A stretch of 64,000 nt of DNA from Halorussus halophilus. Lineage in GTDB: Archaea; Halobacteriota; Halobacteria; Halobacteriales; Haladaptataceae. This document shows, piece by piece, positions 17,871 through 28,991 of the stretch (positions are counted from its first letter, which is position 1; the number at the start of each line of letters is the position of its first letter). The stretch covers positions 1,798,001 to 1,862,000 of the forward strand of contig NZ_CP044523.1 of the NCBI RefSeq assembly GCF_008831545.1, in the 5' to 3' direction. Below the pieces are notes generated by a model. That model searched no databases and had not been told where the DNA came from. It was given only the letters and a program-made list of their open reading frames with translations. The position numbers were made by a program, and so were the translations under genes.

Positions 17871-17960
17871 AAGGCGTCAAGACAGGACTGACCACCGGCG
17901 GAAACGAGAGGACGAATCAACCACCTCCAGCGTCTGCGCGAACGCAGTGAGCGCGGTTCT

Positions 17961-17977
17961 GCGCGCCTGCGGCGCGC
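17961..17977. repeat. Palindrome GCGCGCC / GGCGCGC
   Basis: A perfect 7-bp stem with a three-base loop in the convergent GNAT-menB spacer. It is the first hairpin of a cluster. Confidence 0.7.
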
Positions 17978-18004
17978 TTGCGGTCCAGTGGCAGAAGACG
18001 TGAG

Positions 18005-18047
18005 AAATCCGTGCGCTCGGCGCACGGATTTCGAGCGTCCCTTTTTT
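18005..18047. terminator. Hairpin followed by T-tract, likely terminator
   Basis: A perfect 12-bp stem (18005-18016 with 18020-18031, three-base loop) is followed at 18042-18047 by six T. It lies between the convergent GNAT and menB stops. Archaeal termination relies mainly on T-tracts, so this could end the GNAT transcript. Confidence 0.5.
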
Positions 18048-18059
18048 CATCGACGTTTT
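18044..18059 (+). repeat. Copy 1 of a shared 16-bp core element
   Basis: The 16-mer TTTTCATCGACGTTTT occurs here and twice more near 26.1-26.5 kb. All three copies sit among GC-rich hairpins in noncoding DNA. Confidence 0.7.
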
Positions 18060-18069
18060 TTGCGCGAGC

Positions 18070-18114
18070 GGTGGCAGGGCCGCGAAGCGGCCCGTTGCCA
18101 CCCGAGCGGAAAAA
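18070..18114. terminator. Bulged hairpin with A/T tract facing menB
   Basis: Two 7-bp stems (GGTGGCA with TGCCACC, GGGCCGC with GCGGCCC) form one hairpin with a GAA loop and a small bulge. Six A at 18109-18114 read as a T-tract on the minus strand. It may terminate the menB transcript from the opposite side, making the spacer bidirectional. Confidence 0.4.
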
Positions 18115-18123
18115 AGGCCGGTC

Positions 18124-25815: not shown

Positions 25816-26094
25816 ATGCACAAAGACGAACTTCTCGAACTCCACGAGGAGATGGTTCTCATCATGGAGTACTTCCAGCGTCAGGAGAGCGTGAAAGACG
25901 GCCTGTTCGACGAGTACGAACAACTCGACGTGGACCCCTCGCACGTCCACAAGTCCAAGAGCGAACACAAACACGCCGTGTTCGTGCTGGGCAACAAACT
26001 CGCCGTGGCGATGAGTGAAGACGAGTTCAGCGAAGCGGGCCGCATCGGCAAGCGCATGGAAGAACTTGCTGATGATGCTGAGCAGAAGATCTAA
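25816..26094 (+). CDS. UPF0058 family protein
   Basis: A 92-residue helical protein beginning MHKDELLELHEEMVLIMEYF, followed by DEYEQLDVDPSHVHKSKSEH and KHAVFVLGNKLAVAMS. The conserved His residues fit the archaeal UPF0058 family, whose function is unknown. A second member of the family lies at 31204-31527. The hairpin cluster begins just downstream. Confidence 0.88.
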   Translation: MHKDELLELHEEMVLIMEYFQRQESVKDGLFDEYEQLDVDPSHVHKSKSEHKHAVFVLGNKLAVAMSEDEFSEAGRIGKRMEELADDAEQKI

Positions 26095-26147
26095 TTCGAC
26101 CTTTTACTGCGCTCGGTCGGTGGAAGCCGTTGGCTTCCACACGACCT

Positions 26148-26186
26148 CGCTGGCAAAACGTCGATGAAAAGCACGGCGTTACCGCC
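26148..26186 (+). repeat. Left arm of a 39-bp inverted repeat
   Basis: This segment matches the reverse complement of 26475-26513 with two mismatches. It contains the 16-bp core at 26155-26170 in inverse orientation. Together the arms bound a 366-bp hairpin-rich segment. Confidence 0.8.
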
Positions 26187-26397
26187 TCAGTCGCTTGCGA
26201 GTCGGAGGAGCCGACTCGCTGACGCTCCTTCGACGGTTCCTTGGCCCGCTCGCTACGCTCACGGTAGGTTACGGTGTTCAACCGCACAAGGTTAGCCGAG
26301 CGGAACTGGGGGTGGTTTCGGCAAGTGATTTGTGAACTATATCGACATGCGACACTTTCTACCTGCGGTCGAACACAAGTGTCTGTACCGCGAGAGA

Positions 26398-26424
26398 AGC
26401 CAGACGCGCAGAGCGCGTCTGGCT
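26398..26424. repeat. 12-bp perfect hairpin
   Basis: AGCCAGACGCGC and its exact complement are separated by AGA. It lies inside the inverted-repeat element. Confidence 0.8.
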
Positions 26425-26474
26425 GAACGAGCGCGTCCGAGGAACCGTCGGAGACGCGGCGAAGCCGCGTCGTA

Positions 26475-26513
26475 GGCGGTGACGACGTGCTTTTCATCGA
26501 CGTTTTGCCAGCG
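26475..26513 (-). repeat. Right arm of a 39-bp inverted repeat
   Basis: Partner of 26148-26186, containing the 16-bp core at 26491-26506. No obvious target-site duplication is seen outside the arms. Confidence 0.8.
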
Positions 26514-26612
26514 CAGCGTCGCCTTAGGCGACGCAAGCGCAGCAAAAGGTTGAGTAGAAAAGTTGGGGGTTGGCCCGAAAAATATATGGGTGGCTTGTGG
26601 TTTCACCGTAAT

Positions 26613-28991
26613 ATGGAAACGCGCACGGTCGAACAAGTGGAGGGCTGGGACTCCCGGTCGTTCTCCGGTGGGTACGACGGGTTGCGACAGCTCTCTGACA
26701 GGGAATTTTCGGGGGCCATCAACGCCCGTGGTGCGTGGCTGTTCATGCTCAACGGGCGCATCATTGGTATCTACGAGGGGTCACTCGAAAGCTTCGAGGA
26801 CGCGAGCGGAACCGCCTACAGTGCTCCCCATCCCTCTCTCCCACTGCTGTTTAGCATGCGAGAGAAGGGTGGCGAGACGCAGGCGAAGTACTACACCAAC
26901 GACACGGCCCTCTCGGAGGCCGACTCGACGCTGAAGAGTGGGAACTTCACCGGTTTCATCGAACTCAGCGAGAACGTTCTGAGCGGGGACTACTACGTCG
27001 CCTACTACGGAGGGCGGTCGATGAGTGTGGCCTTCGTCGGCGCGAGCGAGCAGGTCGTCACCGGCGACGACGCCTTCCAGCGGGCTAACGACGAAGTCGG
27101 CATCTACGAAGTCCGGAACGTGGACTTAGACGTCATCGACGTTCCCGAATCCGAGACGGACGAAGAGCCAGCGGCCTCCGGGTCCGCAGGTGCTGGTGCT
27201 GCAACTGGGGCCGGTGCAACCGGAGCAGCGGCTGGTGCCGCCGGAGCAGGACAGGCCACTGGAAGCAGTGGGGCGAGCGAATCGAACAAGTCAACGGCGA
27301 CTGAATCGACGACCGAAGCGACGGGCGACTACGAGTCCTTCGACCCGAGTGGCGGGAAAACGGCCGATTCCGACCCGAGTCCAGAAGCAGGGAGTACGGC
27401 CGGGTCTTCTGATGCGCACGAACAGACTGGTGAATCGAATGCCCAATCGACTGACTCGGCGACGGAGACGGCCGAGCAGTCACGAACTGAGCGCAGCGAG
27501 CGCACTGCTGCAGAATCTGACGCCGCCAGCCAAGCCAGCACGAACCAGTCGGGCAGTCAGAGTGCGTCGCAATCGGCCAGTGAGTCGCCAGCGCAGTCGT
27601 CAGAAGCCTCGGCTTCGACTCCAGCGTCGAAGGCGTCCGATCCGGAGACACCTGCCGAACCGAACACAGAAGCGAGTTCGAGCGAGAAAGCGGCAGCCGC
27701 AAGTTCTGGTGCTGGCGCCGAAACGGACGCCGACGGGGCTGCGTTCGACGACGAAGAGGAGTGGCGCGAGACGACGACGATTCCCTCGCTGAACCCCGAC
27801 CGGAGCAAGTCCCAATCGAAGTCGAAGGCTGCGGGCGCAGGTGCGTCGAACGCTGCGAGCGCGGCGGCAGGGACCACCGAAAGAGCGACGAGTACGTCGA
27901 GTCAGTCCGCCAGTGGAGCGGGGTCGTCCAGCGACCAGAGTACGCCGTCGGAACAGTCTGCTCGTAGTTCGTCCGCGCAGTCGAGTTCGCGTAGCTCCGG
28001 TAGTTCCGCCGAGCGACAGTCGAACAGTACTGCGCAGTCCGCACAAGCTTCGAGTACAGAACAACACTCCCAGTCGAACGAACGCACCGAGCAGTTACGC
28101 TCGAAGCTCAAGCAGAGCCAACAGCAGGTCGAGCAGTTAGAACAGCGCGTTTCGACGGTCGAGTCCGAGCGCGACGAACTGAAGCGCGAACGCGACACCC
28201 TCCGCCAAGAGGTCGAACGACTAGAATCGAAGCTCTCGGCGGCCCAGCAGGGCGGCGGGACGAGCGCCGGAACACAGCTCACCGTCGCACAGGCGTTCGA
28301 GGGAACGAACCTGTTCGTCCGCTATCAGTCGAAGGGGAAGGCGACCTTAGACGAAGCCGCGCAAGGTAACGCGGACCCGGACGACGTGAACGCGAACCTC
28401 CAACTCGAACACCACACGCAGTTCGACGCCGACGACGTGGCCGTCGATGGAGAGGAGTTCGACGCCTTCCTGACCGACTCCTTCGAGTACCGGTTCGCGT
28501 CGTGGGTCGTCGAGAACCTCCTGTACGAAATCCGCGACACTGGCCATCGTGGCAGTCTGAAGGACCTCTACGACGCCATCCCGAAGGTGGACCGCGTGGA
28601 CTTCCACGGTTCGGTCAGCGCAGGCGAGGACGAGGACGGCACGCGCCAAGAGTCGTTCGACGTCATCATGCGCGACCGGATGGGCAACCCGCTCGTGGCG
28701 GCAGACCTCAACGCCTCGCGTGACCCGACGACCGGCGAGATGATGGGGTCGCTGGTGGACGCCTCGACGGGCGTCGCAGAGGCCCACGAGGAACTCGCTG
28801 GCGCGTTCCAAGTCACTGCGAGCTTCTTCGAACCGGCCGCGCTCGAAACTGCCGAGAACGCGACTAGCGGCGGGTTCCTGAGCCGCGAAAAGAGAGAGAG
28901 CTTCGTCAAGCTCTCTCGAAAGCGGGGGTTCCACCTCTGCTTGGTGGAGTCACGTAGTGGCGGTTTCCACCTGAACGTCCCCGAACTGTAG
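26613..28991 (+). CDS. Large haloarchaeal protein with Ser/Ala-rich linker and coiled coil (DUF7527-like)
   Basis: A 792-residue protein in three parts. Residues 1-180 are a folded domain (RTVEQVEGWDSRSFSGGYDG, GAWLFMLNGRIIGIYEG). Residues about 190-490 are low-complexity Ser/Ala/Thr/Gln/Glu sequence. A coiled coil (LRSKLKQSQQQVEQLEQRVS) follows at about 495-545. The last 240 residues form a second folded domain (TVAQAFEGTNLFVRYQSKG, DVIMRDRMGNPLVAADLNA). No signal peptide or transmembrane helix is present. I recall similar haloarchaeal proteins as DUF7527, without a known function. Confidence 0.7.
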   Translation: METRTVEQVEGWDSRSFSGGYDGLRQLSDREFSGAINARGAWLFMLNGRIIGIYEGSLESFEDASGTAYSAPHPSLPLLFSMREKGGETQAKYYTNDTALSEADSTLKSGNFTGFIELSENVLSGDYYVAYYGGRSMSVAFVGASEQVVTGDDAFQRANDEVGIYEVRNVDLDVIDVPESETDEEPAASGSAGAGAATGAGATGAAAGAAGAGQATGSSGASESNKSTATESTTEATGDYESFDPSGGKTADSDPSPEAGSTAGSSDAHEQTGESNAQSTDSATETAEQSRTERSERTAAESDAASQASTNQSGSQSASQSASESPAQSSEASASTPASKASDPETPAEPNTEASSSEKAAAASSGAGAETDADGAAFDDEEEWRETTTIPSLNPDRSKSQSKSKAAGAGASNAASAAAGTTERATSTSSQSASGAGSSSDQSTPSEQSARSSSAQSSSRSSGSSAERQSNSTAQSAQASSTEQHSQSNERTEQLRSKLKQSQQQVEQLEQRVSTVESERDELKRERDTLRQEVERLESKLSAAQQGGGTSAGTQLTVAQAFEGTNLFVRYQSKGKATLDEAAQGNADPDDVNANLQLEHHTQFDADDVAVDGEEFDAFLTDSFEYRFASWVVENLLYEIRDTGHRGSLKDLYDAIPKVDRVDFHGSVSAGEDEDGTRQESFDVIMRDRMGNPLVAADLNASRDPTTGEMMGSLVDASTGVAEAHEELAGAFQVTASFFEPAALETAENATSGGFLSREKRESFVKLSRKRGFHLCLVESRSGGFHLNVPEL

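Follow-up and report, generated by a model that had tools for sequence, protein, structure and literature searches.

A palindrome-rich noncoding module adjoining gene boundaries in haloarchaea, present as a tail-to-tail pair in Halorussus halophilus

The element between the UPF0058 and DUF7527 genes

The window analyzed here is a stretch of 64,000 nucleotides from Halorussus halophilus, in which the element under study lies between two genes on the forward strand, one of the UPF0058 family (PF01893; 25816-26094, stop codon at 26092-26094) and one of the DUF7527 family (PF24371; 26613-28991), both called by our gene finder and assigned by family matches. The gene finder, a codon-score script of our own rather than an annotation, calls no gene between 26094 and 26613, in agreement with an earlier note on this DNA that had seen no coding sequence here, though mechanical open reading frames do occur in the interval. 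There is no tRNA in the window and no Rfam 15 match at the gathering threshold, and the region 26000-26650 gives just two matches of chance level (E = 4 and 4.8).

The earlier note had described a 366-bp element bounded by 39-bp inverted-repeat arms with a 16-bp core. The arms do exist (26148-26186 and 26475-26513): a self-match between them covers 40 nt at 95%, the repeat search lengthens them to 47 nt with 89% complementarity, and their perfect core is longer than had been stated (28 bp, CGCTGGCAAAACGTCGATGAAAAGCACG). They are, however, internal to the real element, which by reading of the sequence covers 456 bp (26097-26552) and is built from two units, each about 170 bp long, placed tail to tail, and it is because of this arrangement that a long inverted repeat is seen at the site. 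Beyond each 39-bp arm comes a hairpin of differing sequence and then the true outer stem (left: CGACCTTTT...AAAACGTCG). The fold of the region 26100-26560 beats 100 of 100 dinucleotide shuffles on both strands (z = -14.8 and -17.9), which excludes chance, and takes on either strand the shape of a single long rod with side hairpins; folded with DNA parameters, 26097-26552 also beats all shuffles (z = -19.1).

The left unit (26097-26266, + strand; unit-model match C1:1824097-1824266) has its outer edge, CGACCTTTT, 2 nt past the UPF0058 stop codon, and the right unit (26386-26552, - strand; unit-model match C1:1824386-1824552) has its outer edge, CAACCTTTT, 60 nt before the DUF7527 start and facing that start. 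Sequence and pairing count place the 5' arm of the left outer stem, CGAC-C-TTTT, at 26097-26105 (+) with its T4 tract at 26102-26105, and the 3' arm, AAAA-C-GTCG, which is the internal matching segment, at 26155-26163 (+). Hairpin 1 of this unit (26115-26146, +) was located by sequence and by comparison among units, and hairpin 2 (26197-26219, +) by sequence and fold. The right unit carries hairpin 3 (26398-26424, -), whose 12-bp perfect stem came from the repeat search, hairpin 2 (26453-26471, -), read from the sequence and from folds of both strands, and hairpin 1 (26516-26534, -), read from the sequence. The tails of both units form a degenerate inner region (26267-26385) delimited by sequence and model matches.

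Anatomy of the unit and its outer stem

Read from the outer edge inward, own-genome copies of the unit begin with N-N-A-(C/A/G)-C-TTTT, followed by hairpin 1 and then by AAAA-c-(complement of the first four bases), AT(G/C)AAAA and CAC. The next part is a stem, CGTC..ACCN, around hairpin 2 that closes at NGGT..GACG, and the last part comprises CGCTCGCT, hairpin 3, CGCTCGCGGTA and a degenerate tail. Units are about 100-230 nt long, certain of them are without hairpin 2 or 3, and the three hairpins vary in sequence among copies while palindromy is kept. At one fixed place within the unit, before CGTCGTCACC, a further hairpin, about 53 nt long (CGGAAGAC...GTCTTCCG), may be inserted (L066 and other loci), and some relatives carry a different hairpin insert at about that same place. 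The tails of solo units (L005, L014, L201) often grade into degenerate repeats of the ACCGCACAGCAACCGC type, of variable length.

The RNAalifold consensus of the first alignment was poor because the variable hairpins misalign, and the structure was therefore written by hand. With this structure, pairs in 21 aligned units changed on both sides in 72 cells, compared with 35 in shuffles, and 77.4% of the paired cells were paired, compared with 71.1%. Because the hand-written structure was also fed to the covariance model (R1), pair counts taken from the R1 alignment would lean to it, and the counts of stem pairs were thus made on raw sequence.

Full pairing of the first four bases with the inner segment was counted in 46 of 53 units. 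A larger collection of 155 distinct units was parsed by a procedure that requires a recognisable A4 partner and so favours intact units, with success for 149; among these, all four outer pairs were present in 98 and the outer three in 134, TTTT was intact in 144, base 3 was A in 148, and base 5 was C in 134 whatever its partner. The bases outside the T4 tract thus vary and re-pair and the tract itself stays. Where the stop codon is TAG or TGA the unit may even start inside it (TAG/AACC, TGA/ACC), the inner segment changing to match. At the DUF7527 edge the relatives, read by eye, show outer bases CGAA, CAAA, CAAC or CGAC and inner segments TTCG, TTTG, GTTG or CTCG, with three or four matching positions wherever this was checked, and the window genome (G000) shows CAAC with GTCG, one mismatch.

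Copies and taxonomic range

Searches with BLAST found dozens of partial copies in the genome of H. halophilus itself and matches in 33 of 59 genomes, including this one and all 17 other Halorussus. The model R1, whose E-values are rough, gave 50 matches in the own genome at E <= 0.01. In an even draw of the class, which included the own genome and in which at most 19 candidates were scored per genome, it matched 101 of 145 genomes at E <= 1e-4; genus g7 had one match among its nine genomes listed, with 24 match-less genomes falling outside that listing. An even draw of the phylum gave matches in 13 of 148 genomes, all from the order of the window. Sixty class-wide loci, a non-random set picked by hand from the strongest class-draw matches listed, were re-found by R1, and nearly all have the C-TTTT...AAAA outer stem, L161 (+) and L169 being the exceptions. 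The element in the window is hence a tail-to-tail pair of an interspersed, palindrome-rich, noncoding module, carried by haloarchaea of several families, with three variable hairpins in a conserved frame. The earlier note had held that single-copy status would speak against its reading, an objection that fails since copies with the same arms occur both in the own genome and in other haloarchaea. Inverted pairs number three in the own genome (456-498 bp), and most copies are single units without terminal inverted repeats. Within the window there is also a weak unit-model match at 17934-18120 on the - strand (C1:1815934-1816120; 30 bits, E = 9e-4), perhaps a degraded unit.

A DNA pattern scan of named genomes returned 11 stretches, three of them in Halorussus records; the other eight, from unrelated bacteria, were taken as chance matches. 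One unit queried against a phage collection had no match, and haloarchaeal viruses were set aside as carriers on that result. The window element as query matches no plasmid, and two units from genomes of another family (f8) match seven plasmid records each, all haloarchaeal. Among five plasmid copies examined none had its outer edge near a stop codon listed in the incomplete gene table, and a dnaJ start is found about 52 nt away from one of them.

Age of the sites and likely exchange of hairpins

At the window site, the model found one or more units at E <= 0.001 in 11 of the 17 other Halorussus genomes, in one case at no better than 9e-4. The model was given 15 same-site loci, G002 (synteny broken) and G013 (no clear unit by eye) being left out; two units on opposite strands are found in six of the 15, and four loci without a match show degraded stems by eye. 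Several copies elsewhere in the relatives share flanks with own-genome copies, which together with the same-site units argues that many sites are old, and the window site does not look like a recent insertion.

Occupancy of other sites was read by eye from the spacers. Of nine genomes read at the L013-type stop site, G000 and G009 have a unit and the other seven show none; in four of these seven a native stretch of four or more T lies no further than about 10 nt from the stop. Among five genomes read at the L003-type promoter site, G000 alone has a unit. The L016-type site holds a unit, sometimes a degraded one, in G000, G003, G006 and G009 and is empty in G002, G005 and G016, and at the L066-type site all three genomes read (G000, G005 and G009) have one. 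As the earlier note had found, no target-site duplication is evident, either beside the pairs or by comparison with diverged empty sites, although the inner tail boundary of solo units cannot be fixed and this comparison is therefore not a strict test.

Hairpins appear to have been replaced within the genome in at least one case. A 39-nt region with hairpin 1 of the left unit is identical at two further own-genome loci (L004 and L005), whereas no same-site unit of a relative has more than 9 nt of it in common, a pattern that indicates within-genome hairpin exchange for the left unit. For the right unit, comparison with the sampled own-genome units gave no sign of exchange, its hairpin 1 having at most 8 nt in common with any of them.

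Placement at gene edges

The outer edge of the module adjoins gene boundaries. We placed 35 units in the own genome, 43 in relatives (mostly the best match of each genome) and 65 class-wide, of which 33, 43 and 56, respectively, have a called gene on both sides. To arrive at these sets, 6 of 45 own-genome rows were dropped (two duplicates of one place and four weak or partial matches) and eight merged into four; 3 of 62 rows from relatives were dropped, 16 more same-site rows entering the pairing counts only; and 4 of 69 class-wide rows were dropped. The placed units are not independent samples because several are orthologous or belong to pairs.

Outer edges that face a stop codon lie within -3 to +7 nt of it in 14 of 18 own-genome cases, 20 of 28 in relatives and 38 of 50 class-wide (72 of 96 in total, the other 24 falling outside this range). 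Uniform placement in the same spacers would give 1.0, 1.3 and 2.6 such cases (about 5 in total), and the highest values in 5000 simulations were 6, 7 and 10. Tail edges facing a stop fall within the same range in 0 of 19, 1 of 25 and 0 of 27 cases (1 of 71). When the outer edge faces a start codon it is most often 25-110 nt away (10 of 15 own-genome, 9 of 15 in relatives, 5 of 6 class-wide), which is where a haloarchaeal promoter would end. In all 74 stop-abutting units the T4 run begins 3-12 nt past the stop, and a T4 within 15 nt past the stop is found in 5 of the 28 window genes without a unit. Only one of the 78 placed units from the own genome and relatives overlaps a called gene.

Spacers with units are tandem or convergent and rarely divergent (5 of 33 own-genome units, 2 of 43 in relatives and 2 of 56 class-wide lie between divergent genes); at L139 and L141, where the spacers are convergent, both genes are followed by a unit of their own, 0-5 nt past the stop. 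Some of the remaining outer edges lie at tRNA ends. Thirteen loci picked for inspection included five in which a unit directly follows the tRNA 3' end and six in which a second element with a repeat of the tRNA end comes in between, neither arrangement being confirmed in the remaining two. This second element (L063, L071, L067, L028, L035 and L022) is about 130-165 bp long, sits between the tRNA 3' end and the unit, terminates in a copy of that 3' end and holds an inverted T-arm that fits the host tRNA.

A proposed outward-facing stop and its alternatives

The polarity of the units, the conservation of the T4 tract and the use of the module at stops, tRNA ends and promoter edges are most simply accounted for together by a stop for polymerases moving outward into the spacer. 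We therefore infer a REP/BIME-like DNA element whose present role is that of an outward-facing transcription stop and insulator, a function to which we give about an even chance. Haloarchaeal promoters also fire backwards. Under this reading an RNA polymerase leaving the upstream gene, or coming backwards from the downstream promoter, would run straight into the outer C-TTTT tract; the strong stems that lie behind this tract, as RNA hairpins or as DNA cruciforms, might then halt the polymerase or fix the 3' end of the RNA, and paired units would shield both neighbouring genes. Copies could spread, and exchange hairpins within a genome, through gene conversion or a putative transposase acting in trans. 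In the available text of a reporter study in Haloferax volcanii, termination reached 95% of transcripts with a T-stretch and 59% with one hairpin motif (PMC7237163). Against this reading stand the T4 tract itself, which lies in the 5' arm of its own stem, whereas an intrinsic terminator has the T tract after the hairpin, and which is shorter than the T5C tested in Haloferax; the several sites that are without a unit in relatives; the 24 outer edges facing a stop that fall outside the range given above; the five plasmid copies with no listed stop near their outer edges; and the counts of stem mismatches given below, which lend no support to selection on a sense RNA hairpin. A broader proposal, which we put forward only tentatively and regard as doubtful, is a class-wide gene-boundary module, that is, an archaeal insulator system spread like a repeat, whose palindrome would borrow the bases at its outer end from the host site (in some cases from the stop codon), pair them with the internal segment, swap hairpins within the genome and insulate genes and tRNAs on both sides.

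The units may instead be selfish REP-like mobile DNA, whose single-strand hairpins would be recognised by a Y1/HUH transposase in trans and whose internal segment would pair with the target beside the insertion as in IS200/IS605, gene edges being only target or tolerated sites. Dispersed copies, presence and absence between species at L003-type and L013-type sites, the pairing of the outer four bases with the internal segment and stems without G.U bias are all in keeping with this view. Nevertheless, we consider it unlikely. All 50 own-genome matches lie on C1, the contig of the window, and none on the other 0.81 Mb (a chance of 4e-5 if placement were uniform), whereas the only two Y1 transposases found in the own genome with Y1_Tnp are both on C3, a contig without a unit match. 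Archaeal Y1 proteins surveyed all fall in the IS200 subclass, as far as the accessible part of PMC6006769 goes. Moreover, relatives carry units at the same site. The native T-runs present at some vacant stop sites might serve as a target, but no such run was visible by eye at the vacant promoter-edge sites that were read.

Enterobacterial BIMEs bind gyrase, and the module could likewise form cruciforms in the DNA at gene ends and ahead of promoters, where it would buffer supercoiling or be bound by a topoisomerase or a nucleoid protein. Its strong stems on both strands, the lack of an RNA-like wobble bias and its position behind genes, upstream of promoters and also between divergent genes would suit such a role, which we nonetheless hold to be quite improbable, as topology leaves the T4 tract at 3-12 nt past stops unexplained.

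That the hairpins act in the transcript, as a 3'-UTR or small RNA family giving exonuclease block or stability, would agree with the excess of pairs changed on both sides over shuffles and with the fixed place behind stop codons, but the pairing in the stems has already weakened this explanation. A clear preference for G.U is the norm in structured RNAs. The 406 hairpin stems counted on the unit-sense strand of raw sequence comprise 3546 Watson-Crick pairs and show 44 G.T against 66 A.C mismatches (binomial P = 0.045, towards A.C), and in a strict count of positions flanked by pairs on both sides 15 against 22 of 1398. G.T thus has no advantage over A.C, which leaves selection for a hairpin in the sense RNA unsupported and calls for a two-way or DNA-level role; the result fits stems kept about alike on both strands, through a DNA role, a role in transcription from two directions, or palindrome correction in replication. 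Units also lie antisense at promoter edges and no Rfam match reaches threshold within the window, so that a structured RNA is in our view very unlikely. The description of the site as a structured noncoding locus was accordingly nearer the mark than the other suggestion of the earlier note, save that the stems lack a G.U preference on the unit-sense strand. A C/D guide RNA, suggested by a GATGA resembling Box C in the core, was dropped because GAAC-type units lose GATGA (by eye).

Finally, that other suggestion, an ordinary miniature inverted-repeat element (a DDE-type MITE with 39-bp terminal inverted repeats), accounts for the arms and the repeat copies and is otherwise contradicted, and hence extremely improbable: the arms are internal and arise only from tail-to-tail pairing, most copies are solo units without such repeats, relatives have units at the same site, and no full-length transposase parent was noticed beside the units, the search itself covering Y1_Tnp only.

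Comparison with known systems

The module resembles the REP/BIME elements of the GTAG and CGTC families in being a many-copy extragenic palindrome often found in inverted pairs, and CGTC-type REPs too are reported without a dedicated transposase (PMC3733652, available text). It differs in its length of about 100-230 nt, its three swappable hairpins and an outer stem able to take in host bases. It also lacks an unpaired GTAG or CGTC end tag, CGTC being present inside stems and the outer foot being mostly NNA(C/A/G)-C-TTTT, and no RAYT/TnpA-REP gene was seen with it, the two Y1 matches of the own genome being those on C3. Proximity to stops differs as well: 446 of 4,072 E. coli REPs lie within 15 nt, according to the portion of PMC12306157 available to us, compared with 72 of 96 outer edges facing a stop at -3 to +7 nt here. 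The T-stretch and hairpin terminators of Haloferax volcanii, as presented in the accessible sections of PMC7237163, are similar in having a T run behind genes and in that a hairpin can terminate; the module differs in being a conserved repeat family, in having the T run within a stem, on its 5' arm, and in lying also upstream of promoters.

Haloarchaeal MITEs are short noncoding repeats, from which the module differs in that single units have no terminal inverted repeats and no parent transposase was seen in the Y1 search. Elements of the IS200/IS605 family (PMC6006769) have subterminal hairpins. These go with guide sequences, and the likeness here is a hairpin with a short internal segment that matches bases just outside; the differences are that the matching segment of the unit lies behind the hairpin, pairs by plain Watson-Crick rules and has no linked transposase.

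How haloarchaeal genes are kept separate in a crowded genome, and how their transcripts end, is poorly known, and repeats that in many species come this close to stop codons, to the ends of tRNA genes and to the edges of promoters offer concrete archaeal sites at which to study termination, insulation and DNA cruciforms. The family is also a system for studying palindromes that stay paired while their sequence is replaced. No earlier description of it was found in the literature searched, which included few subscription journals, and the main texts of PMC12306157 and PMC3733652 contain no word starting with "halo". REPs as such have been reported in bacteria and archaea (PMC12306157, available text).

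Genes beside the units

Among the genes followed by units, one whose product has a thermosome-like Gly-Met tail (by eye) recurs across different genera and families, with the unit 2 nt past its stop (L023, L047, L116, L119 and L120). At L019, two outward-facing units (267-394 and 1470-1634) flank a 1.4-kb interval with a phoU-like gene, and the neighbouring unit, L004, follows a pstB-like gene, both genes being named by eye.
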